Assembly (NCBI GenBank): GCA_027492675.1
Contig: JAPUEI010000060.1
Span: 1-62,687 of the forward strand
DNA length: 62,687 nt
From: Propionibacteriaceae bacterium
GTDB lineage: Bacteria; Actinomycetota; Actinomycetes; Propionibacteriales; Propionibacteriaceae
Direction of reading: 5' to 3'
Both the position numbers and the translations under genes were made by a program. The notes under the pieces were generated by a model. That model saw nothing but the letters and a program-made list of their open reading frames with translations, was not told where the DNA came from and made no database searches. Numbering within the stretch: position 1 is the first letter of the stretch; each line of letters begins with the position of its first letter. Positions 160 to 14,790 of this stretch are shown one piece after another.

Positions 160-576
160 TCAGCTCTTCGCGATGCGCCCCTTGATCGGGCCGTTCAAGG
201 ACACCAGGAGGCTGACGATGCCGACGCCGAGCAGGATGTGGCCGAGGCCGGCGATGCCCGCGATGGCGGGGCCGGCCTCCTGGCCGAGGACCTGCATGGT
301 GCCGTGGACGACGAGCATGGTGACGGTGAGCAGCAGGCCTGCGTTGTACGTGAGGAAGAACCATCGGAACGAGCGACTTCCGCTGATGCCGAGGGTGGCG
401 TCGAGGGTCAGCACGATGAGCATCATCAGCAGCCCGAGGGCGAGCAGATGCGTGTGGACGATCGCGAGCTGGGTGACGCCGGTGAACCCGCGGCCCTTCG
501 TGAACTCCCGATAGAACAGTCCGCCGAGCAGGCCGAGGGCGGCGTAGATGATGGCAGCGAGGTAGGTCCGGCGCAT
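160..576 (-). CDS. DUF2871 family integral membrane protein
   Basis: A 138-residue protein with four hydrophobic segments (about 5-22, 44-61, 74-95 and 103-125), so an integral membrane protein. The sequence YREFTKGRGFTG followed by an HTHLLALG segment is typical of DUF2871, a small family whose function is not known. The His residues in the HTH motif could bind metal or haem, but that is inference. The length fits the family. The start is the ATG with a GGAG-like sequence just upstream. A near-perfect inverted repeat at 603-636 lies about 27 bp upstream of the start and could be its operator. It is transcribed away from the TetR gene across a 200-bp spacer. Confidence 0.8.
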   Translation of the reverse strand: MRRTYLAAIIYAALGLLGGLFYREFTKGRGFTGVTQLAIVHTHLLALGLLMMLIVLTLDATLGISGSRSFRWFFLTYNAGLLLTVTMLVVHGTMQVLGQEAGPAIAGIAGLGHILLGVGIVSLLVSLNGPIKGRIAKS

Positions 577-602
577 GAGTCCTCCAGATCGTGTGTGTCA
601 CC

Positions 603-636
603 GATGATGCCCGGGAACCACGGCCCGGACATCATC
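603..636. promoter_or_regulatory. Inverted repeat upstream of DUF2871 gene
   Basis: The arms GATGATGCCCGGG (603-615) and CCCGGACATCATC (624-636) match at 12 of 13 positions around an 8-base spacer. It sits about 27 bp upstream of the DUF2871 start. Placement and symmetry suit an operator or a 5'-UTR hairpin. The cognate regulator is unknown. The remainder of the 577-779 spacer shows nothing clear. Confidence 0.4.
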
Positions 637-779
637 CAAAAGGTTGGTTTGTGGGCCGCCGGCCGTGGGACGTACGGCGGGCCTTCGCCGCGACCAGGAC
701 ATCGACCCCCTCCGACCTCGACAACCCCTCGCGCTGCCTCTCGCGGCCGACCAGGGCTGATCGCCGTACGGACCGTGGC

Positions 780-1400
780 TCAGGCCACCAGTCGTACGAT
801 CGCCGCTCGCAGGTGGGCCGACAGCTGCTCGAGGGTGAGCTCGCGGTTAGAGGCGCTCTCGAGCATCAGGCCATCGATCAGAGCGCCGACGATCTGGATC
901 GCCATGTCGCGCGGGAGCTCGGCGTCGGTGGGCGGTAGGACCTGGTCGATGATGCCCGCGATGAGGTCGGACCACGCCATCGTCTTGGCCCGCAGCGCGG
1001 GGTTCCGCGTGGCCTCCATGAACATCTCGAACAGCGCCAGGTCGTACATCGGGTCGGCGATCGACTTGTCCAGGAACGTCTCGGTGAGCAGTTCGACGGA
1101 CCGGTCCACGGTGATGGGCGCATCCCCGACCGACGCCAGGATCTGCGTCATGCGCTCCTTCTCGATCTCGACGGCGTACGACATGGTCTCGTCGATGAGC
1201 TCGTCGCGGTCGCGGAAGTAGTACGTCATCGAGCCGAGCGGAACTCCCGCCGCGTCGGCTACGGCGCGGTGGGTCACCGACGCCAGCCCGCCTGTACCGA
1301 TGACCCGTACGGCCGCCTCGAGGATCGTGCGTCGCTTGGCCTCGCCGCGCGAGCCACCGCGACGGCCGCGCAGGGCGCGCTCATCGAACTGGGTCACCAC
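780..1400 (-). CDS. TetR/AcrR family transcriptional regulator
   Basis: A 206-residue TetR-type repressor. The N-terminal helix-turn-helix spans about residues 22-70, with the typical run TILEAAVRVIGTGGLASVT, then VADAAGVPLGSMTYYFRDRDEL, in which YYF marks the recognition helix. The rest is a helical ligand-binding domain. It begins with a GTG (a second GTG follows) preceded by GAGGGAGAG. It lies directly downstream of carbamate kinase on the same strand, so it is probably the regulator of the agmatine operon, with the palindrome at 6190-6213 as candidate operator. Its Shine-Dalgarno sequence lies in one arm of a long inverted repeat. The ligand (agmatine or putrescine would be logical) is inference. 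Confidence 0.88.
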   Translation of the reverse strand: MVTQFDERALRGRRGGSRGEAKRRTILEAAVRVIGTGGLASVTHRAVADAAGVPLGSMTYYFRDRDELIDETMSYAVEIEKERMTQILASVGDAPITVDRSVELLTETFLDKSIADPMYDLALFEMFMEATRNPALRAKTMAWSDLIAGIIDQVLPPTDAELPRDMAIQIVGALIDGLMLESASNRELTLEQLSAHLRAAIVRLVA

Positions 1401-1403
1401 ATG

Positions 1404-1472
1404 CTCTCCCTCGGACGACTCGCCACCTTACCGCGCGGCGATGCCGCGCCCGGGCGAGCGCCCGAGGGAGAG
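1404..1472 (-). promoter_or_regulatory. Hairpin that would sequester the tetR Shine-Dalgarno
   Basis: In the 82-bp gap between arcC and tetR, + strand CTCTCCCTCGG (1404-1414) and CCGAGGGAGAG (1462-1472) are perfect 11-bp inverted arms. Inside are CTCGCC/GGCGAG and GCGCGGC-GAT-GCCGCGC stems. On the coding (minus) strand the 3' arm is the GAGGGAGAG ribosome binding site of tetR. The folded RNA would therefore hide it, or the element may act as a terminator or attenuator between arcC and tetR. Confidence 0.5.
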
Positions 1473-1482
1473 AGGTGTGTGC

Positions 1483-2418
1483 TCACGCGTGGATGAGGGT
1501 CCCCGATCGGCCGGCCATCGCGTCCGGCGCGCGGTCCAGCGAGCCGATGACGGCGCGCCGACCGGGACCGCGACGTACGTACTCCACCGCGGCCATCACC
1601 TTCGGGAGCATCGAGCCGGTCCCGAACTGCCCCTCGGCCGCGTACCGCTCAGCGGTGTCGGCGTCGAGCTCGTCGAGATCGACCTGCTCCGGCGTCCCGA
1701 AGTTCACCGACACCTTGTCGACGGCAGTGAGGATGAACAGGTAGTCGGCGCTCACCGCGTCGGCCAGCGCCGCGGACGTGAAGTCCTTGTCGATGACCGC
1801 TGCCACACCGGAGTACGTGCTCTCGCAGCCGACCACGGGGATCCCGCCGCCGCCGCACGCGATGACCACGAACTCGTGGTCGAGCAGGTTGAGGATCGAC
1901 TCCTTCTCGACGATCCCCTTCGGGCGCGGTGAGGCGACGACCCGCCGCCAGCCCCGCCCCGAGTCCTCGACCATGGTCAGCGAGGGGTCGTCGGCCATCA
2001 TCCGTTGGGCCGTCTCCTCGTCGACGAACGAGCCGATCGGCTTGGTCGGGTGAGCGAACGCCGGGTCATCCGGGTCGACCTCCACCTGCGTGACCACGGT
2101 CGCGACGTACCACGGCATGCCCTGTCGGCGGAGCTCCGCGAGCAGCCCCTGCTGCAGGTGGTAGCCGATGTAGCCCTGGCTCATGGCCGCACACTCGGGC
2201 AGATCCATCGCCGGGACGGCCGAGGTCGTTCCGTGGGCGATCTCGAACGCCTTGGCGATCGTGCCGACCTGTGGCCCGTTCCCGTGGGACACGATGATCT
2301 CGTGTCCCTGGGCGATCAGGCCGATGAGCGGGGCGGCCGCTCGCTCGATGGCGGCACGCTGCTCGGCGGGGTTGTCGCCGAGCGCGTTGCCACCGAGCGC
2401 GATGACGATGCGCGACAT
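1483..2418 (-). CDS. arcC: Carbamate kinase
   Basis: A 311-residue cytoplasmic kinase making ATP from ADP and carbamoyl phosphate, releasing CO2 and ammonia. It starts MSRIVIALGGNALGD, the nucleotide/carbamoyl phosphate loop of the amino acid kinase fold. Other family signatures are VSHGNGPQVG (about 45-54), CGGGGIPV (about 188-195) and a C-terminal GSMLPKV stretch. Length matches ArcC enzymes of about 310 residues. It starts 2 bp after the stop of putrescine carbamoyltransferase, so the two are surely co-transcribed, and it completes the ATP-yielding agmatine pathway. No arginine deiminase is adjacent, so the substrate most likely comes from carbamoylputrescine rather than citrulline. Confidence 0.95.
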   Translation of the reverse strand: MSRIVIALGGNALGDNPAEQRAAIERAAAPLIGLIAQGHEIIVSHGNGPQVGTIAKAFEIAHGTTSAVPAMDLPECAAMSQGYIGYHLQQGLLAELRRQGMPWYVATVVTQVEVDPDDPAFAHPTKPIGSFVDEETAQRMMADDPSLTMVEDSGRGWRRVVASPRPKGIVEKESILNLLDHEFVVIACGGGGIPVVGCESTYSGVAAVIDKDFTSAALADAVSADYLFILTAVDKVSVNFGTPEQVDLDELDADTAERYAAEGQFGTGSMLPKVMAAVEYVRRGPGRRAVIGSLDRAPDAMAGRSGTLIHA

Positions 2419-2420
2419 CG

Positions 2421-3446
2421 TCAGCCGATCTTCGCCAGTACGTCGTCCAGGTCGCTCTTGGCCGCAGCCAGGGTGGCGGCGTCGACGTGCGCGGCCGGCA
2501 TGAAGTACACGAGCAGCGCCCGCTGGGCCGTGAGCCGGTTGCCGGCCTCGTCGAACGCGATGGACGCCGGCCCGTCGAGGACCTCGTCGGTGACCTCCTC
2601 GCCCCGGGTCGCCGGCAGGCAGTGCATGAACTTCGCCGTACCCCCCGCGCGACGCATGAAGTCCGCGTTCACCTGGTACTTCGGCATGAACACCGCCTGG
2701 CGCTGCTCGGGCGACAGCTCGCTCTCGTACAGCCCGTACCAGACGTCGGTGTAGACGAAGTCCGACCCCTCGATGCTCGCCGGGTCGTCGGTGACGAGGA
2801 TCGACCCGCCGGAGACGGCCGCGTTCGACCGGCCGATCTCCTGCATCGCGTCATTGAGCTGGTAGCCCTTCGGGCCGAACTGGACGAAGTTCATGCCCAT
2901 CTTCGTGGCGATCATCATCAGCGACGCGCACACCTGCGTGGCATCGCCCACGAACGTCACCTTGCAGTCCTCGAGGCGCTTCCCGGCGGGCAGGTGCTCG
3001 ATCATCGTGATCAGGTCGCCCAGCTCCTGGGTCGGGTGGTTGTAATCCGACATGCCGTTGATGACCGGTACGGACGACGCGGCGGCGAGGTCGACGACCG
3101 TCTGGTGCACGGCGACGCGGGCCATGAGGATGTCGACGAGCGTGCCGAGCACCCGGCCGGTGTCGCCGAGGCTCTCGTGGCCGCCGAGCTGGATCTGGCC
3201 GGGCGCGAGGTACTGCGCGTGGCCGCCGAGCTGCGTCATGGCGGTCTCGAACGAGACCCGAGTACGGGTCGACGACTGCTCGAAGATCATGCCGAGCGTC
3301 TTGTTGGCGAGGAGCTGCGGGTAGTAGCCGTTCGCGATGCAGCCCTTGAGGGCCAGGCCCAGGCGGGCCATGTCCAGGAGCTCGGACTTGGTGAAGTCCT
3401 GCGTGTCGAGGAAGTCGACGGTGCGCGTGGCGGTCATGGCGGTCAT
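2421..3446 (-). CDS. ptcA: Putrescine carbamoyltransferase
   Basis: A 341-residue transcarbamylase. In the agmatine pathway it phosphorolyses N-carbamoylputrescine to putrescine and carbamoyl phosphate. The carbamoyl phosphate motif is SSTRTRVSF (about 56-64). The stretch [15 protein letters not shown] is characteristic of putrescine carbamoyltransferases rather than ornithine carbamoyltransferases. Further family sequence includes [23 protein letters not shown] and [13 protein letters not shown]. The start is preceded by GGAAGGAA. Its position between agmatine deiminase and carbamate kinase supports putrescine over ornithine as substrate. An ornithine carbamoyltransferase label is the likely automatic alternative, but the motif and context argue against it. 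Confidence 0.9.
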
Positions 3447-3551
3447 AGGTGGTTCCTTCCGGTACGAGTCAAGGTTCAGGGCACGGCGGAGCCGGCCACG
3501 GGTGTGGTGCGGGGTGCCCGAAGGCGGATGGTGCGGGTGAGGGTCTCCCGG

Positions 3552-4649
3552 TCAGCGGCCCGACGGGCGCTGCTGGGTGATGCAGTGGACGTTGCCGCCG
3601 CCGAGCAGGATCTCCCGGCCCGGGACGGTCACGACGCGACGAGGGGCGAAGACCCGTTCGTACGTCGCGATGGCCGCGGCGTCGTGCGGGTCGTCGAAGA
3701 CCGGCAGGACGACGAGGTCGTTGCCGATGTAGGAGTTGACGTACGAGCCGGCGAGCCGGTCGCCCTCCTCGCGGGGGAGCGTCCCGTCGACCGCGTCGAC
3801 GCCGTCGGCCTCGGAAGCGGTGATGGTGATCGGTCCCGGCTGGAGGATCGTCACGACGTCGAGGGTGCGACCGCGGGCGTCGGTGGTCGACGTCAGAACC
3901 TCCATCGCGGCCTGCGACCGTGCGTACTGCGGGTCGGTCTCGTCGTCGGTCCACGTGAGGATGACCTGACCGGGACGCGTGAACCGGCAGAAGTTGTCGA
4001 CGTGGCCGTTGGTCTCGTCGAGGTAGACGCCTTCCGGCAGCCAGATGACCTTGTCGGCGCCGAGGTAGTCGAGCAGACGCGCCTCGATCTCCTCCTTGGT
4101 GAGCCCCGGGTTGCGCCCCTCCGACAGCAGGCACTCGGCCGTCACCAGGACGGTCCCCTCGCCGTCGACGTCGATCGAGCCGCCCTCGAGCACGAAGTCC
4201 GTACGGTAGCGGTCGACGCCCTCGACCTCGCAGACCTTGCGGGCCACGGCATCGTCGGCGACCCACGGGAAGTACAGCCCGTCGACCAGTCCGCCCCAGG
4301 CGTTGAAGACCCAGTCCACGCCTCGTACGTCGCCGGCGTCGTTGACGACGAAGCTCGGGCCGATGTCGCGCATCCACGAATCGTCGTTGCTCATCTCGAC
4401 GACCCGGACGTGCGCCGGCAGCTGGCCGCGCGCGTTGTCGTACTGCCGCTCGGAGACGGCGACCGTGACCTGCTCGGTCTCGGCGATCGCCGTGGCGACG
4501 GCCGCGAACGCGTGCTGCGCCGGCTTGCCGCCCAGGCGCCAGTTGTCGGGCCGCTCGGGCCAGACGAGCCAGCAGCCGCTGTGGTGCGCCCACTCGCCCG
4601 GCATGCGGTAGCCGTCGGCCTTCGGGGTGGTCTCAAGAGTGCGGGTCAT
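3552..4649 (-). CDS. aguA: Agmatine deiminase
   Basis: A 365-residue enzyme of the guanidino-group-modifying (porphyromonas-type PAD) family, hydrolysing agmatine to N-carbamoylputrescine and ammonia. It shows [12 protein letters not shown] near the N-terminus, [11 protein letters not shown] (about 90-100), the [12 protein letters not shown] segment, and the catalytic Cys in [11 protein letters not shown] near the C-terminus (about C356). The ATG at 4649 was chosen over one 18 bp upstream because GGAAGGAA precedes it at good spacing. This places the start 1 base after the transporter stop, which suggests translational coupling. A 102-bp spacer separates it from ptcA. Confidence 0.94.
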
Positions 4650-4650
4650 G

Positions 4651-6144
4651 TCAGTTCCTTCCGGCATCGGCGGTGAGCGTGGACTCGGTGGCGTCAGCGG
4701 CCAGCGCCGCCTCGGCCTCGCGGGCTGCGGCCCATCCCGGCGCCTTGAGGCAGAAGATCTCCTGGATCACGACGGTGATCACGAGGCCCACAAGGATCGA
4801 GCCGGTGACCTCCCAGGAGAAGTCGAACGGGTTCACGACGAAGAAGATCGCCGCGACGACGAGCAGGACGGTGGGGACCCACGAGATGAGCTGGGTCATC
4901 ACCCGGCCGCCGGGAACGCGGTACGGCCGGACGGTGTCCGGATCGGTCTTGCGCAGCTTGGCGAACACCCGCATGAGCACGATGTAGGGCAGCAGGAAGA
5001 CGACCGACGAGAACGCGAACAGGTTCCAGAAGAGGTCGTCCACGGCGCCTTCGGTGATGGCGAACAGGATGGCGTACGCGATCGTGACCGCGGTTCCGAC
5101 GAGCGAGCACAGCAGGGCCGCGCCGATGGGAGTGCCGCGCGTGGGGTGCGTACGGCCGAAGATCTTGGGGAGGTCACCCAGCTGCGCGGACTCGGAGGCG
5201 GCGAGGTTCGCGCCGATCGTCCAGGGGATGAGGGAGGCGAAGAAGCAGTACAGCGAGCCGATGCCGAGCACCGAGACCGCGACCCGCGCGATCGGGGACT
5301 CTCCGAAGCCCAGCCGCAGCGCGTCGATGAGGCCGGTGGTCTCGGAGATCTGGTCGGCGGGGACGATGACCTGCATGGCGACCGTCGCGATGAGGTAGAA
5401 GCCTCCGATGAGCAGGCCTGCGATCAGGATCGTGCGGGGCACGTCGCGCTTCGGGTTCTCCATCTGGCCCGACGCGGAGCTCATGAGCTCGAAGCCCAGG
5501 AAGTTGTAGATGACGATCGGCAGCGCGAGCGCCAGGGCCGAGATGCCTTGGTGCGGCAGCATCGTCGACAGGCTCCACTCGGTGGCAGAGCCGTTCGTCC
5601 AGCCGTACATCCCGGCGGCCACACCCAGGGCCAGGATGACGATGACCGTGATGCCGGCGCCGAGGTTCGACACCCAGGTGCCCGTCTCGAGACTGCGGGA
5701 GTTGACCCAGTAGTTCACCCAGATCAGCACGAGCGCGATGGCGACCTGCACCCAGAAGCTCAGCTTGCCGTCGAAGAACATCGCCGACAGCGTGCCGGAG
5801 AACATGAGGTAGACGCTCGGCACCCACAGGGCCGTGTTGAGCCAGTACCACCACGACACGCGTGTGCCCCAGCGCTTCCCGAAGGCGCGCACGACCCAGG
5901 AGTAGATGCCTCCGGCGTCCGGGTAGGTGGAGCCGAGCTCGCTCGTGACCAGCCCGTACGGCACGAAGAAGGCGATGATGATCGCGATCGTCCAGAAGAC
6001 CGTCGTCGGCCCGACCCCGGCCGTCACGGTGAGCTGCGACAGCAGCAGCATCGCGCACACCGAGAACAGGATCATGTCGAACATCTTCAGTGCGGGTCGT
6101 GCTGATCCCGGCTCCTGGGAGACGGGTGGTGCTTCGGTCGTCAT
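4651..6144 (-). CDS. aguD: APC family transporter, probable agmatine/putrescine exchanger
   Basis: A 497-residue membrane protein with about 12 transmembrane segments of the amino acid-polyamine-organocation superfamily, in the glutamate/GABA antiporter-like branch ([22 protein letters not shown] after TM1-2). It is the first gene of the agmatine operon. By analogy with AguD of lactic acid bacteria it probably imports agmatine in exchange for putrescine; this rests on context. The internal ATG at 6144 has a strong AAAGGAG at 5 bp. An upstream in-frame ATG at 6165 has only AGAGG and would add seven residues. The palindrome at 6190-6213 lies just upstream, consistent with repression at this promoter. 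Confidence 0.85.
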
Positions 6145-6189
6145 CGCTGCTCCTTTGCTGCTCATCGTCGACCTCTAGGGAGTTCTCTA

Positions 6190-6213
6190 CGACTTGTACA
6201 TTTGTACAAGTCG
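6190..6213. promoter_or_regulatory. Perfect palindromic operator upstream of the agmatine operon
   Basis: CGACTTGTACA (6190-6200) and TGTACAAGTCG (6203-6213) are perfect 11-bp inverted arms around a TT spacer, 46 bp upstream of the transporter start. A TTGTACA core with dyad symmetry is typical of TetR-family operators, and the only adjacent TetR gene is at the end of this operon. It also lies in the spacer shared with the divergent MATE gene, so it could control both. Binding is inferred, not shown. Confidence 0.65.
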
Positions 6214-6381
6214 TGTGTGCGAGACAGAAGCGTACATGGCTGCTCGGGGAGCCCTCAGGCGGGGTCGGTGTTTGCGTGCTATCTCGGTGGTGGCTAGGGG
6301 AAATGCGTCCGCCGGGCCCGGTGCTGGGGGAGCGCATCGCGCCCCCGAATCGCCGAAACCCTCTCCCCTTCGGGGCGTTCA

Positions 6382-7923
6382 GTGCGATACGTTTCAATCG
6401 AGCACCCTGCCGGTCGCTGCGCCCGTCGGACGCACGCATCGACCCGTGCCCCAGCCACCATCGCGTACTCCTCCAAAGGCCTTGTCATCACCAGGAATCT
6501 CACTGTCGGATCACCGCTTCGCGTGATCGGCTTGTTCACCGTGCCGTTGCTGCTGGGCAACCTGTTCCAGCAGCTGTACGCGGTGACCGACGCGCTGGTC
6601 GTCGGTCGCCTGCTGGGCGTCGACGCGCTCGCCGCCGTGGGGGCGTCAGGCAGCTTGCAGTTCCTGCTGTTCGGGTTCGGCTTCGGGTCCGCGTCGGGCA
6701 TCGCGATCCCCGTCGCGCGGGCCTTCGGCGCTGGAAACCTGCCCGCGATGCGACGTGCGGTCGCGGCGGGTGTCGTCGTGAGCGCGGGGATCACGGTAGC
6801 CGTCACCGTCATCGGCACGCTCGGCTCCCGTCCGCTGCTCACGCTGCTCGGCACGCCTCCGGAGCTGATGGGGATGGCGGACACGTTCCTCGTCGTCCTG
6901 TTCAGCGGCACCATCACGACGATCGCCTTCGGGTTCCTGAGCGCGATCATCCGCGCGCTCGGCGACAGCCGTACACCCCTGGTCTTCCTCATCGTCTCCT
7001 GCGTGCTCAACGCAGGCCTCGTCGTCCTGCTCATCGCGGGCTTCGGCATGGGGGTCGCGGGAGCGGCCCTGGCGACGATCATCGCTCAGGCCCTCTCGGT
7101 GATCCTCTGCCTCGTGCTCGTCGCGCGCCGGATGCCCGACCTCCACCTGCGACGCGAGGACTGGCGCTTCGGCCGCGCCGAGCTCTCGGATGCGACGCGA
7201 CTAGGCCTGACGATGGGGTTCCAGGTCTCGATCATCGCGGTGGGGGCAGCGATCCTGCAGTACGGCGTCAACCAGCTCGGCACCGACGTGATCGCCGCGT
7301 TCACCGCCTCCATCCGCGTCGAGCAGGTCGGTGTGACGCCGCTGGTGTCCCTCGGCGTGGCGCTCAGCACGTACGTCGCGCAGAACGTCGGCGCTCGCCA
7401 CTATCAGCGCATCCGGGTCGGCGTCTTCCGCGCCAGCCTGTTGTCCATCGGGTTCGCAGTGACGCTGGGGCTGGTCATCCAACTGTGGGGTACGCAGCTC
7501 GTCCGGTTGTTCGTCGGCTCGGGCTCCGACGACGTGGTCGCCATGTCCCACAGGTTCCTGGTCATCACGAGCAGCACGTACGCATCGGTGGCTCTGCTGC
7601 TGGTGTTCCGGAACGCGCTGCAGGGGCTCGGCAGGGCCGCCGTACCCACCATCGCCGGCGCCATGGAGCTGCTCGCGCGGGCGGTCGTCGGCCTGTACCT
7701 CATCCACAGCTGGGGCTTCTTCGGCGTCATCATTGCCGGCCCGCTCGCCTGGGTGGCGTCACTGACGCCTCTGGCCGTCGCGTGGGTGATCCAGCATCGA
7801 CGGCTGCTCGCGCTGGAGGCCGCCGAAGCCCAGGGACTCGTGGTCATCGGCGAACGCGCGCCATCGCGTGAGCCGAAGGTGGGGACACCCGCCGCCACGG
7901 GCGAGGACGTGGCGGCTACTTGA
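6382..7923 (+). CDS. MATE family efflux transporter
   Basis: A 513-residue multidrug and toxic compound extrusion protein with 12 predicted membrane spans. The core starts at about residue 40 with NLTVGSPLRVIGLFTVPLLL, then NLFQQLYAVTDALVVGRLLG, typical of the family. It probably exports cationic compounds by H+ or Na+ antiport. The start is uncertain. The only in-frame start codon upstream of the conserved region is the GTG at 6382, giving about 38 unusual basic residues. Starting at the GTG inside RVIGLF would cut the first helix. It is divergent from the agmatine transporter, and its last 8 bp overlap the convergent MmpS-like gene. Confidence 0.85.
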   Translation: MRYVSIEHPAGRCARRTHASTRAPATIAYSSKGLVITRNLTVGSPLRVIGLFTVPLLLGNLFQQLYAVTDALVVGRLLGVDALAAVGASGSLQFLLFGFGFGSASGIAIPVARAFGAGNLPAMRRAVAAGVVVSAGITVAVTVIGTLGSRPLLTLLGTPPELMGMADTFLVVLFSGTITTIAFGFLSAIIRALGDSRTPLVFLIVSCVLNAGLVVLLIAGFGMGVAGAALATIIAQALSVILCLVLVARRMPDLHLRREDWRFGRAELSDATRLGLTMGFQVSIIAVGAAILQYGVNQLGTDVIAAFTASIRVEQVGVTPLVSLGVALSTYVAQNVGARHYQRIRVGVFRASLLSIGFAVTLGLVIQLWGTQLVRLFVGSGSDDVVAMSHRFLVITSSTYASVALLLVFRNALQGLGRAAVPTIAGAMELLARAVVGLYLIHSWGFFGVIIAGPLAWVASLTPLAVAWVIQHRRLLALEAAEAQGLVVIGERAPSREPKVGTPAATGEDVAAT

Positions 7924-8497
7924 CCGTGGTGGCCGAGCAGCTGACGCTGCCTGACTTGCCCGTCGCGGAGTTCTTCGACTGGCTCTTCCCGTCGACGAGG
8001 ATCTCGCACGAGATCGTGGACTTGTCCGGCACGTCGTAGTCCAGCGTCGCCATCAACGTGGTCACGTCGAAGCCGTTCACCTTCTTCTCCGTGGTCCACG
8101 ACGTCGTGATGGTCTCCTGCGAGGTGCCCGTGGTCGAGCCGTACACGACCTGCGCCTTGCCGGTGGTCTCCACCTTGTACGTGATGGTGTGCTCGCTGTT
8201 CGTCACGTTCGAGACGCCCTTGCCGATGGCCGCGATCGCCACGACGATGGCGACGATGATGCCGATCACGATCACGCCCGCGATCACGGCGGCGATCAGG
8301 CATCCCTTGTTGCTCTTCTTCACCGGCGCCGCCGGCGCGCTGAAGCCGGCCTGGTACGGCGGCGGCCCGGGCTGGTACGGCTGCTGAGGCCCACCCTGGT
8401 AGGGCGGCTGCTGCTGGTACGGCTGCTGGGGCCCACCCTGGTACGGCGGGTGGTTGCCGGGCTGCTGGGGTCCGGGCGGGTAGGGCGGCTGGCTCAT
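7916..8497 (-). CDS. Proline/glutamine-rich membrane protein with MmpS-like domain
   Basis: A 193-residue protein. Residues 1-60 are a cytoplasmic tail of P-P-Y, Q-Q-P and G-G repeats. A single membrane helix spans about 66-92. The extracellular part (about 100-193) reads HTITYKVETTGKAQVVYGS, then CEILVDGKSQ and SVSCSA, the arrangement of the MmpS family (ITY..VTG...; C-x-I-x-VDG; S-C near the end). The two Cys probably form a disulfide. MmpS proteins assist MmpL exporters, but no mmpL gene is adjacent, so its role here is open. AGGAA precedes the ATG. It converges with the MATE gene. Confidence 0.7.
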   Translation of the reverse strand: MSQPPYPPGPQQPGNHPPYQGGPQQPYQQQPPYQGGPQQPYQPGPPPYQAGFSAPAAPVKKSNKGCLIAAVIAGVIVIGIIVAIVVAIAAIGKGVSNVTNSEHTITYKVETTGKAQVVYGSTTGTSQETITTSWTTEKKVNGFDVTTLMATLDYDVPDKSTISCEILVDGKSQSKNSATGKSGSVSCSATTVK

Positions 8498-8594
8498 CGG
8501 GTTCCTGTCGGCGTGAGCGGCAAAAGCAGGTGTTCAGCAGAGTAGAGCCCGGACACGCCGGTGTGAGACATCCGGCGCGACAAATCTGCTCGGG

Positions 8595-9611
8595 TCAGGC
8601 CTTCTTCTCGTCGTGCCCGCCGAACTGCTTGCGCATGGCGGAGAGCACCTTGTCGGCGTACAGATCGGCGTCGCGCGAGGAGAACCGGGCGAACAGGGCG
8701 GTGGAGAGTACGGGGGCGGGGATTCCCTCCTCGATCGCGGCGAGCGCCGTCCAGCGCCCCTCGCCGGAGTCGGACACATGACCGGAGAAGCCCTCCAGGT
8801 GCGGGTCCTCGGAGAGCGCGAGGGCCGTGAGGTCGAGCAGCCACGACTGCACCACGCTGCCGCGTCGCCACACCTCGGCGACCTGGGAGATGTCGATGTC
8901 GTACATGAAGTGCTCCGGGTGCTCCAGCGGGGCGGTCTCGGCGTCGGCTGTGCGCGCCACCGCACCGGCGTTGGCGCCCTTGAGGATGTTCAGCCCCTCC
9001 GCGTACGACGCCATCAGCCCGTACTCGATCCCGTTGTGCACCATCTTCACGAAGTGGCCGGCGCCGACCGGCCCGCAGTGCAGCCAGCCCTGCTCGGCCG
9101 GGGAAGGGTCGCCCTCGAGGCCTTGCGTACGGGGCGCGGCGTCGACGCCGGGAGCCACGCTGGCCCAGATCGGGCGGAGCCTGTCGACCGGCTCGGTCTC
9201 TCCGCCGATCATCAGGCAGTAGCCCCGGTCGAGGCCCCAGACGCCACCCGAGGTGCCGACGTCGATGTAGTGAATGCCCTTGTCGCGCAGAGACTGCCCG
9301 CGCGCGATGTCGTCGTGGTAGTGAGAGTTGCCGCCGTCGATGATCGCGTCGTCGGCGCTCAGCACGCCGGCCAGCCCGTCGACGGTCTTCGTCGTGATCG
9401 CGCCGGCGGGCACCATGATCCAGACGTTGCGCGGGGCGGCCAGCTTGCTCGCGAGGTCCTCCAGCGAGGTCGCGCCGACCGCGCCCTCGGCCGCGAGCGC
9501 CTCGACGGCGGCCGGGCTGATGTCGTACACCACGCACTCGTGACCGTCGCGCATCAAGCGCCGCACGATGTTCGCACCCATCCGGCCGAGGCCGATCATT
9601 CCGAGCTGCAT
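8595..9611 (-). CDS. gnd: 6-phosphogluconate dehydrogenase (short, decarboxylating type)
   Basis: A 338-residue enzyme oxidising 6-phosphogluconate to ribulose 5-phosphate and CO2 in the pentose phosphate pathway. [19 protein letters not shown] is the Rossmann dinucleotide fold. DGGNSHY and the catalytic [13 protein letters not shown] motif follow at about 115-185. The length fits the ~300-340 residue class, often NAD+-preferring, rather than the 470-residue class. The ATG at 9611 has GGAGG at 5 bp; a longer in-frame reading to 9884 lacks family sequence. Cofactor preference cannot be settled from sight alone. A large inverted repeat lies upstream in the divergent spacer. Confidence 0.92.
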
Positions 9612-9680
9612 GCCATCCTCCACAAGCCGGGCCAGTACCGCGGCCCACCGTACCCGCGGATGGCACCTGACGCCGTCGTC

Positions 9681-9762
9681 GATCCGCGTTTTCGTACCCC
9701 AGATGGTCCGATCGACCGCCCCAGGGCCCGAATGGGTGATCGGCGGTGCGGAAACGCGGATC
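9681..9762. repeat. 82-bp imperfect inverted repeat in divergent spacer
   Basis: GATCCGCGTTTTCGTACC (9681-9698) matches the reverse complement of 9745-9762 at 16 of 18 positions. Weaker internal pairing occurs between CCGATCGACC and GGGTGATCGG. It occupies much of the gap between gnd (leftward) and the small gene at 9804 (rightward). It could be a palindromic repeat element or a two-arm operator for both genes. Confidence 0.5.
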
Positions 9763-9803
9763 TGTCGTCGTATCACCATCCCCGGCAGGCCCTCTCCACG
9801 GAC

Positions 9804-10085
9804 ATGAGCACATCGACAGTCACCGTGAACGGTCGGACGGTCGTCATCCCCGACCACACCTACCTGTGGAGCCCCGACCCGCACGTGGTCGTGCGCCTGA
9901 CCCGCCCGTGCGTGAGCACCTTGGCCGCGCAGCTCGCCGACCTGGGAGCGGCCGTTGACCTCTGGTGCCCGCCGTACGGGGTCTGCGTGAGCATCTCGGC
10001 TGACGCGCCGGACCTGCTGGCGGCGTCCGACCTGGTGGCCGGCTACGTCCCGTATTCACACGATGCCGTCGCTGCGGTCGCCTAG
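9804..10085 (+). CDS. Small hypothetical protein
   Basis: A 93-residue protein starting [18 protein letters not shown], with no transmembrane segment and no family I recognise. It has a beta-rich N-terminal half and an Ala-rich C-terminal half with two Cys (about C36 and C55) plus a Val-Cys-Val segment. The ATG at 9804 has only a weak upstream purine run. GC-rich third positions and an even reading to TAG support coding. It is 21 bp from the next gene and could form an operon with the 249-residue unknown protein and the PfkB kinase. Confidence 0.5.
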
Positions 10086-10106
10086 CGTCGCCGATATCTT
10101 GGCGGC

Positions 10107-10856
10107 GTGAACCGAGACGACTGGTGGCGAACGCTCGACCCTTCCGCAACGAATGACCTAGCCGCGACGTGGTTCCCGGTGGGCCAGCCGGGCTTCGCCG
10201 GGGACAGCAAGCACGCCTGGCGCGCGACGCTCGACGAGCGCTACGGCCCCGAGGGCTGGCGGATGGGTCACTACGTGCGCGGGCAGATCGTGCCGCCGGC
10301 GGTCGCGATCGGCGAGTACGAAGAGGCGTACCGGGTCTTCCTGCGCGCCCGCCCGTCCCTGGTGCGATTCCTCGCCACGACGTGCGGCAACGTCTACGAC
10401 AGCCACCCCTCGAACGTGTACGACGCGGCGTACGAGCAACCGGACACCGTCTCGAACCACTACCAGGACATCTCCGTGCGGCGGGTGATCGCCGAGCTCG
10501 CCGACGATCCCGACTGGCCGGACGTCACCCCGACCGAGCCGGGGGACGTCGAGCTGACCGACGCCGGTACGGGCGAGCGGCGCGTCGTGCCCAGGGCGTA
10601 CGGCTTCCGCGGCGACCTGCTGTGGCAGATCCGTGAGCCGGACTCGCCCGGGTTCGTGCTCAGCCCCGCCGTCGTACCGGCCCATGACCCCGCCCTGCTC
10701 ACGACCCTGCCGGGACGACTCGAGTGGTACCACGGCGAGGGCTGCGGTCACCTCTCGATCGAGGCCTTCTGGCAGATGAGCAAGGTCATCGAGGTGCGCC
10801 TCGACCGGTTCCTCGCGCTCGGCGAGGGACGGCTGACGCCCCTGGCGGGCCTGTGA
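10107..10856 (+). CDS. Hypothetical protein coupled to a PfkB kinase
   Basis: A 249-residue cytoplasmic protein that I do not recognise. It is rich in Trp, Tyr, Asp and His, for example MGHYVRGQIVPP, CGNVYDSHPSN, EWYHGEGCGHLSIEAFWQ. The clustered HGEGCGH, CGNVYDSH and NHYQ sites could bind metal, suggesting an enzyme, but this is only suggestive. It starts with GTG after GGCGGC. Its stop overlaps the start of the PfkB-family kinase (GTGA), so the two are translationally coupled and probably share a pathway. Confidence 0.75.
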   Translation: MNRDDWWRTLDPSATNDLAATWFPVGQPGFAGDSKHAWRATLDERYGPEGWRMGHYVRGQIVPPAVAIGEYEEAYRVFLRARPSLVRFLATTCGNVYDSHPSNVYDAAYEQPDTVSNHYQDISVRRVIAELADDPDWPDVTPTEPGDVELTDAGTGERRVVPRAYGFRGDLLWQIREPDSPGFVLSPAVVPAHDPALLTTLPGRLEWYHGEGCGHLSIEAFWQMSKVIEVRLDRFLALGEGRLTPLAGL

Positions 10857-11743
10857 ACCCGCCGGTCCTGCTGGGCACGATCAGCCTCGACAAGTACGTC
10901 GACTTCGGCTTCGACCTGCCCGGCGGCGGGGTGCTCAACATGGCCTGGCACTGGAGGCAGCTGGGCCAGCCGTACGAGCTGGTCACGCGCGTCGGCGCCT
11001 CCGACGCGGAGGTCTTCGGGTGGTTCCTGGCCCGGCACGGGATCCCGCACGATCCGGCCGCGCTGCTGTCGGATGAGGCGTCGTCGTCGATCGACATCCG
11101 CTTCGGGGAGGACCGGCAGCCGCGGATGAGCAACTTCGTCCCCGGCGTGTGGGACGACTTCCGCTGTACAGCCGAGCAGGAGCGGCTGGTTGCGGCGGCG
11201 CCGGCGTACCACACGGTGCTCGTCGAGGGCGCGATCGCCGAGACGATGCGGCTGGGCGAGGCCGGGCTGCTGCCGCGCGGTGCGGTGTCGGCGGACTTCC
11301 TCGGGTTCGTGCACTACACGCCGGAGCGGATGGCCGACACGCTCCGCGTCGTCGACCTCGGCTTCGTCGGCTGGCCCGGCGCGCCGACAGATGCGGGCGT
11401 CGAGGCGATCGTGGGAGTCGCCCGGGAGATGGGCCGCATGGTCGTGCTGACGTTCGGCGCCCAGGGCGTACGGGTCGTGGACGGCCGTCCCGGCGGAGCG
11501 GACACCTGGTTCCCGACCGTGGCGGTCCCGGTGGCGGGCACGACGGTCGGCTGCGGCGACGCGTTCATCGCGGCGTTCCTGGCGTCCTGGTGGGCCGAGG
11601 CGGATGTCGCGGCCGCGGTCGCCGCCGGCGCTGCGCGCGGCGCGATGGCGACGCGATGGAACCGGCCGATCCCAGACGAGGCGTACGGGGAGGAACTGGC
11701 CGCGTTCCTCGCGGTGACCGACGCGGCGGCGGGCCACGCCTGA
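10853..11743 (+). CDS. PfkB family carbohydrate kinase
   Basis: A 296-residue ribokinase-type sugar kinase, possibly close to the FrlD (fructosamine 6-kinase-like) branch; the substrate is unknown. It has an N-terminal GTISLDKYVDFGF strand, GGGVLNMAWHWRQLG (the early GG substrate site) and the C-terminal PfkB signature GTTVGCGDAFIAAFLASWW, whose Asp is the catalytic base. The GTG start at 10853 overlaps the upstream TGA by GTGA, so it needs coupled translation. A longer in-frame reading from 10724 runs through the upstream gene and is rejected. It is short for the family at about 300 residues but seems complete. Confidence 0.88.
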   Translation: MNPPVLLGTISLDKYVDFGFDLPGGGVLNMAWHWRQLGQPYELVTRVGASDAEVFGWFLARHGIPHDPAALLSDEASSSIDIRFGEDRQPRMSNFVPGVWDDFRCTAEQERLVAAAPAYHTVLVEGAIAETMRLGEAGLLPRGAVSADFLGFVHYTPERMADTLRVVDLGFVGWPGAPTDAGVEAIVGVAREMGRMVVLTFGAQGVRVVDGRPGGADTWFPTVAVPVAGTTVGCGDAFIAAFLASWWAEADVAAAVAAGAARGAMATRWNRPIPDEAYGEELAAFLAVTDAAAGHA

Positions 11744-11866
11744 CCGGACGCGACGATCCCGCCACGATGCGCGGTGTGGAGGGTCCTCACGGCCTCCGAC
11801 GGCCGGATGCTGGCGGAATCCTCCCGCGGTGCCGCCCCGATGGCATGCTGCGTGGCGAGGAGGACC

Positions 11867-12337
11867 ATGAGCACCAGCCGTACCCAGCAGCACTTCGACA
11901 CCCTCGGCACCGGCCTACAGGTCATCGAGACCGGCGAGGACACGTCGACCGTGGTCGCCGCGGCGGCCGCCCTCGGCGTCCAGCCTGGCCAGATCGCCAA
12001 GACGCTGGCCGTACGGGCGGGCGACGAGGTGTTCCTGCTCGTCGCGTGCGGCACCGCGCGGCTCGACAACCGCAAGTTCAAGGACCGTTTCGGCGCCAAG
12101 CCGCGCATGCTCGGCCACGAGGAGACCTCCGACCTCACCGGACAGCCGGTGGGTGGCGTCGGCCCGTTCGGGCACGTCCGTGAGCTGACGATGTACTTGG
12201 ATGCGTCGCTGCGCGACTTCGACGCCGTGTACCCCGCGGCCGGCAGCCGGTCCAGCGCGTTCCGGATCACCCCCGACGAGCTCGGCCGCCTGACCGGCGC
12301 CGAGTGGGTGGACGTCTGTACGGTGCCGCAGACCTGA
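11867..12337 (+). CDS. ybaK: YbaK/EbsC family aminoacyl-tRNA deacylase
   Basis: A 156-residue protein of the YbaK/ProRS-associated domain family, which hydrolyses mischarged tRNA (Cys-tRNA-Pro and relatives). It shows the family order VVAAAAALGVQPGQIAKTLAVR with the conserved Lys in IAKTL, LVACGTARLDNRKFK, then GGVGPFGH (the Gly-rich hydrolysis site). The ATG at 11867 has GAGGAGG immediately upstream; earlier ATGs in frame are not conserved. The exact tRNA target is not predictable. The antisense MFS remnant starts just beyond its stop. Confidence 0.9.
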   Translation: MSTSRTQQHFDTLGTGLQVIETGEDTSTVVAAAAALGVQPGQIAKTLAVRAGDEVFLLVACGTARLDNRKFKDRFGAKPRMLGHEETSDLTGQPVGGVGPFGHVRELTMYLDASLRDFDAVYPAAGSRSSAFRITPDELGRLTGAEWVDVCTVPQT

Positions 12338-12344
12338 GCGGCTC

Positions 12345-12437
12345 GTACACCATGTCGGCGAGCAGCGACACGACGCCGAACCCGACGACGAAGGTCCACG
12401 GCCGCAGCAGCGGCGGGGCGTTCTCGGATCGGCTCAT
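12345..12437 (-). pseudogene. N-terminal remnant of an MFS transporter gene
   Basis: On the minus strand, an ATG at 12437 begins about 30 codons reading MSRSENAPPLLRPWTFV and GFGVVSLLADMVYE. This is the typical first helix and loop of a major facilitator exporter family (SLLAD-x-x-YE). The similarity stops at VYE and the frame then enters the 3' end of ybaK. The rest of the roughly 400-codon gene is absent, so this looks like a deletion scar. No Shine-Dalgarno remains. The call rests on motif recognition in a short peptide. Confidence 0.55.
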
Positions 12438-12489
12438 GGTGAAGAGGATCGTACGTCCGCGGCGCGGGTCCACCGGCTACGGTCGCCCC

Positions 12490-12948
12490 ATGAACCTCGG
12501 GGACTCGGTGACGGTGGAGATGCGCGCGACGCCGGAGGCGGTGTGGGCGGTGGTGGCGGACGTCACGCGCATCGGCGAGCTCAGCCCCGAGACGTTCGAG
12601 GCCGAGTGGCTCGATGGCGCCACCGGCCCCGCGCTCGGGGCGTACTTCCGCGGGCACGTGAAGCGCAACGGCGTCGGCCCGACGTACTGGAGCCGCTGCC
12701 ATGTCACAGCGTGCGAGCCGGGGCGGACGTTCGGGTTCGAGGTCGGCGTCGGGGAGGTGTGGATCAACAGCTGGCGGTACGAGATCGCGCCGAGCCCGAC
12801 CGGCTGCGCGGTCACCGAGTCGTTCCAGCTCCTGCCCACGGTCGGCAACCGCCTGTACTGGGGGCTGATGGGTCGGTGGCGCGGCCGCACGAACCGGCGC
12901 GGCATGATCCAGACTCTCGCTCGCGTGAAGGGGATCGTCGAGGGCTGA
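12490..12948 (+). CDS. SRPBCC (START-like) family protein
   Basis: A 152-residue single-domain protein. VTVEMRATPEAVWAVVADVTRIGELSP is the classic first strand and helix of polyketide cyclase/START-like folds. The middle has FRGHVKRNG and WSRCHV, and there is a long C-terminal helix ending MIQTLARVKGIVEG. Such proteins bind hydrophobic ligands in a deep cavity; the ligand is unknown. The ATG at 12490 starts directly at the conserved strand, while longer readings pass through the MFS remnant. A lipoprotein gene follows after 73 bp. Confidence 0.85.
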   Translation: MNLGDSVTVEMRATPEAVWAVVADVTRIGELSPETFEAEWLDGATGPALGAYFRGHVKRNGVGPTYWSRCHVTACEPGRTFGFEVGVGEVWINSWRYEIAPSPTGCAVTESFQLLPTVGNRLYWGLMGRWRGRTNRRGMIQTLARVKGIVEG

Positions 12949-13021
12949 CGGGCGCCCCGACGTCGGATGTGGACTGGCCCAGTGGGACCCTGAAAGGAGT
13001 CTCGAGCGTCTGGAGGTCGCC

Positions 13022-13321
13022 ATGAGGCGTCACGTACCGCTGGTCCTGGTCGCCGTGGCGGCCACCCTCGTCCTAGCCGGGTGCGCGGCAGGTCCGAACA
13101 CCGCAGCGACCGGTGTCGATCCGGCCGGGTTCTGGCTCGGCCTGTGGCACGGCCTGATCTGCCCGATCACGTTCGTGATCTCGCTGTTCACCCACCAGGT
13201 GAGCATCTACGAGGTCAACAACAACGGCGGCTGGTACAACTTCGGCTTCCTGCTGGGCGCCTCCGCCACCCTCGGCGGCAGCGGCGGTGCGGGCGCCCGA
13301 CGTCGGCGCCACAAGGACTGA
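13022..13321 (+). CDS. Small conserved lipoprotein with membrane segment
   Basis: A 99-residue protein. The N-terminal signal MRRHVPLVLVAVAATLVLAGC carries a lipobox (LAGC, about 18-21), so it is likely lipid-anchored after cleavage. The core FWLGLWHGLICPITFVISLF is hydrophobic, followed by VSIYEVNNNGGWYNFGFLLG, a conserved pattern of a small family without known function. The tail is basic (GARRRRHKD). A GGAGGTCGCC sequence precedes the ATG. It converges with the SGNH gene 8 bp away. Confidence 0.8.
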   Translation: MRRHVPLVLVAVAATLVLAGCAAGPNTAATGVDPAGFWLGLWHGLICPITFVISLFTHQVSIYEVNNNGGWYNFGFLLGASATLGGSGGAGARRRRHKD

Positions 13322-13328
13322 CAGGCCG

Positions 13329-14075
13329 TCAGCCGACGAGCGTCCAGGTCGGGTGCTTGGGGGCGCGGTGCGCGCCCGATGACGTCTTGCGGATCCGTCG
13401 TCCGATCCACGGGGCGACGTGCTCGCGGTAGTACTGCGCCTCGCCGACCATTCCCTGCTTCCACGGCCGCGGCGTCGGCGCGGGCTCCAGCTCCGACGTC
13501 ACGCCGATCGCCGTCAGCACCTTGTGCGCGACCCGCGCGTGCCCGTACGGGTTGAGGTGGAGCCTGTCCTCGGACCAGAACTCCGCGCCGCGCAGCTCGT
13601 CATCGCCGAACGCGTTGACGAACACGATGCCCAGGTCCTCGGTGAGCGCCCGTGCCGCCTCGGTGAGTGCCTCGCCGCGCTCGTGGAACGTACGACCCAT
13701 CGGCAGCCCCGCGGACGGGTCGGGTCCGCTGAGCAGTACGGGCTGCACGCCGGCGCGCAGGCACCGGATCATCGCTGAGCGGATGAGCATCATCTGCACG
13801 CGGGTGTCGTGCCCCGGGCGGAGCATGTCGTTGCCACCGCCGTTGAACGTCAGCAGCGTCGGCAGCGGGTCCAGCGCCAGCGCGGCGTCGACCTGCGTCG
13901 TCGCGATGGGGATCAGCAGGCGACCGCGGATCGCGAGGTTGGCGTACTCCACCGGCTCGTCGCTGTGGGCCGCGAGACCCTCGGCGACGCGGTCGGCCCA
14001 GCCCCGTGGCGTACCGTCCTCGCGCCAGTCCCCGACGCCCTCGGTGAAGCTGTCGCCGACGGCCACGTACCGCAT
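13329..14075 (-). CDS. SGNH/GDSL family hydrolase
   Basis: A 248-residue esterase/lipase-type enzyme. Block I is GDSFTEGVGDW with the nucleophile Ser at about 9. Block III is FNGGGNDML, with the oxyanion Asn. Block V is DRLHLNPYGHARVA with the catalytic Asp-x-x-His. No signal peptide is seen, so it is probably cytoplasmic; the substrate is unknown. The ATG at 14075 follows GGAGGA and begins exactly at the first beta strand (MRYVAVGDS), so the longer frame upstream is rejected. Confidence 0.9.
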   Translation of the reverse strand: MRYVAVGDSFTEGVGDWREDGTPRGWADRVAEGLAAHSDEPVEYANLAIRGRLLIPIATTQVDAALALDPLPTLLTFNGGGNDMLRPGHDTRVQMMLIRSAMIRCLRAGVQPVLLSGPDPSAGLPMGRTFHERGEALTEAARALTEDLGIVFVNAFGDDELRGAEFWSEDRLHLNPYGHARVAHKVLTAIGVTSELEPAPTPRPWKQGMVGEAQYYREHVAPWIGRRIRKTSSGAHRAPKHPTWTLVG

Positions 14076-14139
14076 CAGTCCTCCTCCGTGTTGACCCGGT
14101 CCCATCCTGCACTGCGGCGGGTCGCCGCACGGGGATGCG

Positions 14140-14550
14140 TCAGGCGAAGGTGCGCTCGGCGTACGTGTTGTCCCACGGGCCACCGCCAGTGACCGTCCAC
14201 TCCCGCAACCGGCTCAGCGTGATCCGTACGACCGTCAGCCGCCGCTGCGACGGCAGTCCAGCGGCGACCAGCGCGGCCGCCGTGGCGTCCTGGTCGACGA
14301 CCGCCGAGCCCTCCGCACTCCACCAGCCGTCGGGGCACGGTCCGCCGAGAGCCACGTCGGGCCGGTCCGCGATGTCGCTGATCTTCTCCGCGTCCGGCTC
14401 CGTCAGAACGAGCAGGTCGCACGGGCAGTCGCCCGGCCAGACCGTGACAGGCCGCGTATGGAGGGTGGTCGGACCGTACGTGGTGAGCATGCAGACGGTC
14501 CCCGGCGCGGGCAGCTCCGGTGTCACGGAAACAGATGTCACGGAAGTCAT
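14140..14550 (-). CDS. Pyridoxamine 5'-phosphate oxidase-like split-barrel protein
   Basis: A 136-residue protein. VCMLTTYGPTTLHTRPVTVW, a block like LLVLTEPDAEKISDIADRP, and DGWWSAEGSAVVDQD follow the order seen in FMN-binding split-barrel proteins of the general stress/PNPOx-like group (x-LTT...H-S/T-RP; K-x-x-x-I-x-x-x-P; W...G-x-A). It may be a flavin-dependent reductase or oxidase; the substrate is unknown. GGGG lies upstream of the ATG. It is divergent from kdpF, and the 153-bp spacer carries an inverted repeat and direct repeats. Confidence 0.65.
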   Translation of the reverse strand: MTSVTSVSVTPELPAPGTVCMLTTYGPTTLHTRPVTVWPGDCPCDLLVLTEPDAEKISDIADRPDVALGGPCPDGWWSAEGSAVVDQDATAAALVAAGLPSQRRLTVVRITLSRLREWTVTGGGPWDNTYAERTFA

Positions 14551-14584
14551 CCTGCCCCTTTGCGATGCCCCTGGTGACCGATCG

Positions 14585-14609
14585 GAACGTCGGGATGGGG
14601 TGGACGTTC
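14585..14609. promoter_or_regulatory. Inverted repeat in the PNPOx-like/kdp divergent spacer
   Basis: GAACGTC (14585-14591) and GACGTTC (14603-14609) are perfect inverted arms separated by 11 bases. The site is 35 bp upstream of the PNPOx-like gene and about 95 bp upstream of kdpF. It may be an operator for either gene. Confidence 0.35.
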
Positions 14610-14636
14610 ACCATCCGCCGCCCTGAGTAAGGATTT

Positions 14637-14662
14637 CGTCAAGCCCCGTCAGGGGGCCGTCA
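14637..14662 (+). promoter_or_regulatory. Triple CGTCA direct repeat, candidate KdpE site
   Basis: CGTCA occurs at 14637-14641, 14647-14651 and 14658-14662, a 10-11 bp helical step, 42 bp before the kdpF start. Tandem half-sites at one helical turn are typical of OmpR/PhoB-type response regulators, and KdpE is encoded in this operon. KdpE binding is inferred. Confidence 0.45.
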
Positions 14663-14703
14663 AGGGTCGGCCGATCCGCTCAGCGGTGGCACAGGCTGGC
14701 CCC

Positions 14704-14790
14704 ATGACCGAGAACATCCTGGCCGCGGTGATCGGCATCGGGCTGCTGATCTACCTCACGTACGCCCTGATCAGACCGGAGAAGTTCTGA
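14704..14790 (+). CDS. kdpF: Potassium-transporting ATPase small subunit KdpF
   Basis: A 28-residue single-helix peptide starting MTENILAAVIGIGLLIYLT and ending ALIRPEKF. It has the size and RPEKF end typical of KdpF, which stabilises the KdpFABC complex in the membrane. Its stop overlaps the kdpA ATG (TGATG), giving translational coupling. There is no strong Shine-Dalgarno, and the mRNA may start close to the ATG. Confidence 0.9.
   Translation: MTENILAAVIGIGLLIYLTYALIRPEKF

Follow-up and report, generated by a model that had tools for sequence, protein, structure and literature searches.

A predicted agmatine deiminase operon in a Propionibacteriaceae genome with an adjacent TetR-family regulator and a candidate operator

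A contig of 62,687 nt from a Propionibacteriaceae bacterium (JAPUEI010000060.1 of assembly GCA_027492675.1; hereafter ‘the window’) contains a predicted operon for the conversion of agmatine to putrescine, followed by the gene for a TetR-family regulator. As read from its sequence, the operon is likely to be repressed by the adjacent TetR protein, acting through a palindrome at positions 6189–6214, with repression lifted by agmatine or one of its products. The pathway itself, its presence in an actinobacterium and the control of agmatine deiminase by a TetR-type protein are already known. What appears to be new is the pairing of a candidate operator with this group of TetR proteins at agu operons, which would constitute a regulatory variant of a known pathway.

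Organization of the agu operon

An earlier note on this DNA had proposed a complete agmatine deiminase operon at positions 1483–6144. Family models confirm the genes and place tetR outside that interval. All five genes are on the minus strand, with the transporter, aguA, ptcA and arcC running from 6144 to 1483 and tetR following from 1400 to 780:

4651..6144, minus strand: aguD, APC-family transporter, predicted agmatine/putrescine exchanger (PF13520, 160.9 bits)
3552..4649, minus strand: aguA, agmatine deiminase (TIGR03380, 577 bits; cut-off 381.8)
2421..3446, minus strand: ptcA (aguB), putrescine carbamoyltransferase (TIGR04384, 552.7 bits; cut-off 500)
1483..2418, minus strand: arcC (aguC), carbamate kinase (NF009007, 346.5 bits; cut-off 266)
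780..1400, minus strand: tetR, TetR-family regulator, GTG start (PF00440 and PF17940)
6189..6214, no strand assigned: candidate TetR operator, a palindrome with 12-nt arms and a 2-nt spacer, 44 nt upstream of the aguD start

For aguD, the most likely start is ATG 6144, preceded by AAAGGAG; an open ATG upstream at 6165 is a second possibility. The cluster had been described as almost without gaps, which is accurate for most junctions: the aguA ATG at 4649 lies one base past the aguD stop, and ptcA and arcC are separated by 2 bases. It does not hold for aguA–ptcA (105 bases) or arcC–tetR (82 bases). The closest solved structure to the aguA product is the agmatine deiminase 2jer (E 2.1e-130), and those closest to the aguD product are GadC and the arginine/agmatine antiporter AdiC. 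Against the model TIGR00746, arcC scores 350.5 bits, ∼8 bits short of the cut-off of 358.25. Three terminator-like sites in 500–6600 are all located within the transporter gene (shuffle mean 1.3). A DUF2871 protein (147 bits) is encoded directly downstream of tetR, at 160–576 on the minus strand.

The established pathway converts agmatine to putrescine, ammonia and CO2 with a yield of one ATP (accessible parts of PMC3282769 and PMC3796520). The same products would arise here from imported agmatine through the predicted activities of the deiminase, the carbamoyltransferase and the carbamate kinase. A search of the genome with an arginine deiminase model gave no match, so the carbamate kinase is not explained by an arginine deiminase pathway. 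The best match to the speA arginine decarboxylase model reaches 54.7 bits against a cut-off of 624.1; AdiA-type and ornithine decarboxylases were not searched for. With neither an arginine deiminase nor a speA-type match above cut-off, agmatine is probably imported.

The cluster could instead serve putrescine supply or detoxification, with a kinase that merely drains carbamoyl phosphate and has no role in energy generation. The speA result is compatible with this idea, since putrescine made from imported agmatine could then be needed. A dedicated kinase within the operon and a transporter resembling GadC and AdiC speak for ATP generation coupled to amine exchange, the arrangement described for the agmatine pathway of enterococci (PMC3796520 and PMC3282769, accessible parts), and we regard an operon with no energy role as unlikely. 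For the predicted ATP-yielding operon, the physiological benefit may be energy, acid resistance or putrescine supply.

Identity of the carbamoyltransferase

Judged by its sequence, the ptcA product is a true putrescine carbamoyltransferase (PTC). The earlier assignment, made from a putrescine-type motif (at residue 79), is borne out by the TIGR04384 score and by published PTC traits. These traits include the absence of a lysine two residues before STRT, replacement of the SMG loop by (Y/W)(G/W)(V/L/I)X and an extended C terminus that carries a weak LXX(F/Y/L/M/v)(L/i/m) motif (PMC3282769, in its accessible part). The window protein contains FEQSSTRT, with glutamine two residues before STRT, followed by DVWYGLY and, close to the C terminus, LDDVL. 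It matches the solved structures 3txx and 4a8h (E about 1e-144). The ArgF protein of the same genome, encoded on a different contig from the operon (L116, contig C57), has the signature of an ornithine carbamoyltransferase (OTC), with FEKTSTRT and DVWVSMGE.

A tree was prepared from 46 hand-chosen rows (the window, 27 PTC loci and 18 OTC loci), of which 45 were built after a filter excluded L011 (internal stop or too short). A single branch separates 28 PTC rows from 17 OTC rows, with support of 100/100 and recovery in 100% of 200 bootstrap trees; clustering with ornithine enzymes, the outcome named in advance as contradicting the assignment, is not seen. The window protein groups with Cellulomonadaceae-type proteins at 96/87 and with those of Buchananella and a Bifidobacteriaceae metagenome-assembled genome (MAG) at 94/93, slightly below the mark for firm support. 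Two rows, L119 and L120, have long branches, and the program issued a warning that the L119 branch meets the OTC branch.

An ornithine enzyme of arginine metabolism in a mixed cluster was considered, as ptcA also passes two broad OTC models, NF001986 and TIGR00658 (318.7 bits; cut-off 280.85), with lower scores. We rejected this identity on the basis of the higher PTC score, the PTC signature, the placement in the PTC clade at 100/100 and the separate ArgF elsewhere in the genome; the sequence refutes it, leaving a probability close to nil. Among the PTC matches, the 527-residue protein P0002 repeats part of its sequence internally and is probably an assembly artefact.

A candidate operator upstream of aguD

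The palindrome at 6189–6214, ACGACTTGTACA-TT-TGTACAAGTCGT, is perfect and is the sole inverted repeat reported for positions 6100–6500 at the settings used. With up to three mismatches allowed, it is matched once in the window and never in 100 shuffled versions. The core, TTGTACANNTGTACAA, is found at a single place in the whole 3.27-Mb genome with up to one mismatch (reversed control, 0). A second, degenerate copy was sought in the window; only a half-site-like ATGTACG at 6237–6231 was seen, its spacing is off, and we do not claim it as an operator.

Related loci were taken as the best 80 of 439 PTC relatives from a named genome collection. Fifteen of them (L021–L034 and L036, from 14 genomes, nearly all Actinomycetota) form an actinobacterial-type set. 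The pattern TTGTACNNNNGTACA (TTGTAC-N4-GTACA) was searched for in 15 operon-bearing genomes (∼53 Mb), with the reversed pattern as a control. It is matched in 14 of these genomes, the exception being a Bifidobacteriaceae genome, and the control in none, and all 27 of the listed matches, counted on both strands, map to agu promoters as placed from the locus ranges. Base composition at 66–73% GC predicts about 0.10–0.34 occurrences per 3.5 Mb.

In the relatives, the sites are paired. Of 12 loci scanned, 11 carry two copies of TTGTAC-N4-GTACAA (up to two mismatches), 22–25 bp apart, in the stretch that separates tetR from the first agu gene (aguD, or aguA in L034), and the companion contigs L121 and L122 do likewise. 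Cellulomonas sp. SG140 has two copies of the operon (L031 and L032) with a site pair at each. Outside the tetR–agu regions of the 12 loci (∼194 kb), there is one site, at two mismatches. Within the operon-bearing genomes, to which the search was confined, this distribution resembles the trace expected from a regulator with one target.

The palindrome also lies upstream of a divergent MATE efflux gene (6382–7923, plus strand), which raises the question of whether it serves that gene, with TetR controlling efflux and not agmatine use. TetR proteins frequently adjoin and regulate efflux genes, and one close fold match of the window TetR, described below, is the multidrug binder EbrR. In the relatives, it is the interval from tetR to the first agu gene that holds the same sites, and a tblastn search with the window MATE protein gave no match in 22 loci. 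An empty-site comparison with genus mates recovered the MATE gene alone, in two of six genomes (67% identity) and with different neighbors; neither the operon nor the site is present in the stretches compared. Control of efflux through this palindrome is very improbable on these grounds.

A different regulator could bind the palindrome, or it could form a hairpin in the leader RNA, with TetR nearby by chance; palindromes are, after all, a common regulatory form. Among the 80 related loci, 12 of the 13 with a TetR ortholog also have the TTGTAC-N4-GTACA motif, and 66 of the 67 without the ortholog lack it. The single exception among these 67 is L039, where the motif (at 4385) lies over 3 kb away from ptcA. 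The motif is constant while its flanks vary, a pattern more in keeping with a protein dimer than with a hairpin, and we consider both alternatives remote. We return below to the predicted binding of the adjacent TetR protein.

The TetR regulator

As the earlier note had it, the neighboring regulator is of the TetR type (PF00440) and no AguR is evident. The comparison sequence was a LuxR-like protein, judged as such by eye and by its aguR position in Streptococcus ratti (L094). It gave no full-length match in the genome: there were 11 matches, all within residues 243–312 of 318, at the helix-turn-helix end (best E 8e-6), and none was on the contig of the window.

An ortholog of the window TetR is encoded at 13 of the 80 PTC loci, all 13 within the 15 actinobacterial-type loci (55–68% identity); a search at E ≤ 1e-8 found no match in the other 65. 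The two actinobacterial-type loci without the ortholog, L024 and L029, end at contig ends, and in each genome another contig has tetR beside aguD. In the genome of L024, the tetR–aguD contig looks like a second operon copy. We aligned 39 sequences, consisting of the window protein, those of two loci and 36 of 120 listed homologs (177 found). The helix-turn-helix is near-invariant across the alignment, as a shared operator would require. The ligand domain contains a conserved stretch, F-x-D-K-x-x-A-D-P-x-Y-D-L-A-L-F-E-x-F-x-E-A-T-R, whose acidic residues would fit a cationic ligand such as agmatine.

A structure model of the protein (mean predicted local distance difference test, pLDDT, 90.5; predicted template modeling score, pTM, 0.82) is all-helical, and its best matches are TetR folds. 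The closest solved folds, at ∼24–27% identity, include RcdA (entries with trimethylamine N-oxide or Tris) and EbrR (entries with proflavin, imidazole or ethidium). In the proposed mechanism, TetR would bind the palindrome at 6189–6214 and act as a repressor, not as an activator, of the agu operon, and agmatine or one of its products would release it. With tetR as the last gene, derepression would also raise the level of the repressor, a negative feedback, if the five genes are co-transcribed.

Several points weigh against this proposal. The window has one site where its relatives have two, and L036 (Bifidobacteriaceae) has the TetR ortholog and no site at up to two mismatches. The related loci share descent, so that their counts of TetR ortholog and motif are not independent events. 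L034 (Buchananella) keeps TetR, the sites, the deiminase and PTC with a different gene set (a transporter of 32% identity and no carbamate kinase found), which indicates that the switch does not depend on one precise gene complement. As to the inducer, the RcdA and EbrR fold matches of the model only hint at a small amine or cationic ligand. The aguD product meets no cut-off among the curated models, the best being the GadC model at 147.9 bits against 640. A scan of positions 500–6600 for sigma-70-type promoters found none, which bears on where the site would lie relative to the start of transcription.

Distribution among relatives

The PTC model at E ≤ 1e-120 matches 2 of 394 genomes of the class, one above the cut-off, and 2 of 197 genomes of the family, both above it. 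Six genus mates (69–98% complete) gave no match at this threshold; over the operon they yield merely short, weak matches, and those on the PTC gene are OTC-like. The window TetR is found at E ≤ 1e-30 in 1 of the 394 class genomes, its own operon-bearing genome, with scoring limited to the seven best candidates per listed genome. Contamination by a foreign contig was considered and rejected: the contig fits the genus because the 7.5-kb stretch at 8494–16000 is matched in all six genus mates (best identity, 76–81%).

Related operons are present in Actinotalea, Cellulomonas, Pengzhenrongella, Buchananella and a Bifidobacteriaceae MAG, and public records already label such actinobacterial proteins putrescine carbamoyltransferase. 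The operon had been thought unusual in its occurrence. The counts above support its rarity, and these operons, together with those of Eggerthella lenta, show that it is not isolated. The survey of gene order that had been suggested covered 22 loci, which also served for comparison of the transporters. The four operon genes are complete in 14 of the 15 actinobacterial-type loci. The order aguD-aguA-ptcA-arcC is found in all 13 of L021–L033 (aguD is partial in L024 and L029), and L036 has aguD-ptcA-arcC-aguA. L034 contains aguA, its divergent transporter and ptcA, with no carbamate kinase match in the 17-kb locus. From these sequences, the five-gene set is rare but coherent, with regulator and enzymes traveling together. 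The MAG of L027 is labeled Proteobacteria, and its operon falls within the Cellulomonadaceae; the bin is probably mixed or mislabeled.

The second family genome (G545; L119, contig C243) has ptcA-aguD-aguA on a 4.6-kb contig, with a PTC of 61% and a transporter of 34% identity to those of the window and no tetR match. Since its operon is ordered differently, the pathway may have entered the family on two or more occasions. A further locus, L120 (G137:C63), encodes a deiminase and a transporter of 65% and 51% identity and a carbamoyltransferase only 45% identical to that of the window. The latter scores 459 against the PTC cut-off of 500, has no DVW-type loop by pattern and forms the deepest branch on the PTC side; its substrate may be a different one.

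The relatives have another palindromic box, GGAC-N4-GTCC (in many cases GGGAC-N3-GGTCCC), once per locus and just upstream of the TetR sites, at the following positions:

L021:5123, L022:5144, L023:5037, L025:664, L026:4912, L027:4085
L028:5047, L030:4988, L031:4938, L033:3081, L121:3444, L122:783

It is absent from the window promoter, L034 and L036. Among the matches listed, with symmetric sites counted on both strands, genome-wide GGGAC-N3-GGTCCC exceeds its reversed control in 13 of 14 relatives; the genome of the window has three matches against six for the control. The box may resemble the DosR/DevR box.

Comparison with known systems

The window operon has the same four functions as aguBDAC of Enterococcus faecalis and Streptococcus mutans. 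Its PTC is 65–74% identical to those of Bacillota-labeled loci among the best 80 of 439, and its transporter is about 31–36% identical to those of four Bacillota loci (L035, L038, L041 and L042). The gene order differs, being D-A-B-C in the window and B-D-A-C in the agmatine deiminase operon of these two species. The latter is accompanied by a divergently encoded LuxR-like activator (PMC3796520, accessible part), whereas the regulator in the window is of the TetR type. By eye, the divergent gene beside ptcA in the Enterococcus loci L037 and L040 looks GntR-like, and that in the Streptococcus loci L094, L097 and L076 LuxR-like. The LuxR-type AguR that had been taken as the rule for lactic acid bacteria and enterococci thus seems not to extend to these two Enterococcus loci.

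Regulation by a TetR-type protein in place of a LuxR-type AguR had also been considered unusual. The TetR assignment stands, and such control has a precedent in Pseudomonas aeruginosa, where aguBA is repressed by a TetR-type AguR and agmatine releases the repressor (PMC4287709, as far as the source is accessible). The aguR-aguBA system shares with the window an agmatine deiminase operon and a TetR-family regulator. It differs in the step after the deiminase, which is carried out by N-carbamoylputrescine amidohydrolase, with no PTC, carbamate kinase or ATP step. The actinobacterium E. lenta shares PTC, agmatine deiminase and a transporter with the window, and there all three are induced by agmatine (PMC10234575, accessible part).

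A close likeness is seen to the Actinotalea, Cellulomonas and Pengzhenrongella loci, which have orthologs of all five genes (TetR, 54–68% identity; PTC, 70–75%) and the same operator core. Their tetR gene sits upstream of aguD, divergently in L022, whereas in the window tetR is the last gene. They also differ in having two operator copies 22–25 bp apart and the upstream GGAC-N4-GTCC box, which the window lacks.

Implications

We found no published report of this TetR group or its operator in a search that covered mainly titles and abstract openings, with most subscription papers beyond its reach. A broader proposal, for and against which we see about equal odds, is that a one-target TetR in a lineage of Actinomycetota senses agmatine or its carbamoyl product and reads TTGTAC-N4-GTACAA alone. 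Its origin would be independent of the two known AguR proteins, the LuxR type of Bacillota and the TetR type of Pseudomonas. Cellulomonadaceae would add the genome-wide GGGAC-N3-GGTCCC box, which may bring oxygen or dormancy control.

With the candidate pair, a short, concrete operator and a regulator can be named for agmatine fermentation in bacteria other than Bacillota, with a form of control that could be tested by one binding experiment. In the 15 genomes searched, the pattern recurs only at agu promoters, making the TetR–operator pair a candidate for a compact agmatine sensor. Alongside the cases with LuxR-like and GntR-like regulators and the TetR case of Pseudomonas, the window suggests that this pathway has repeatedly acquired new regulators.

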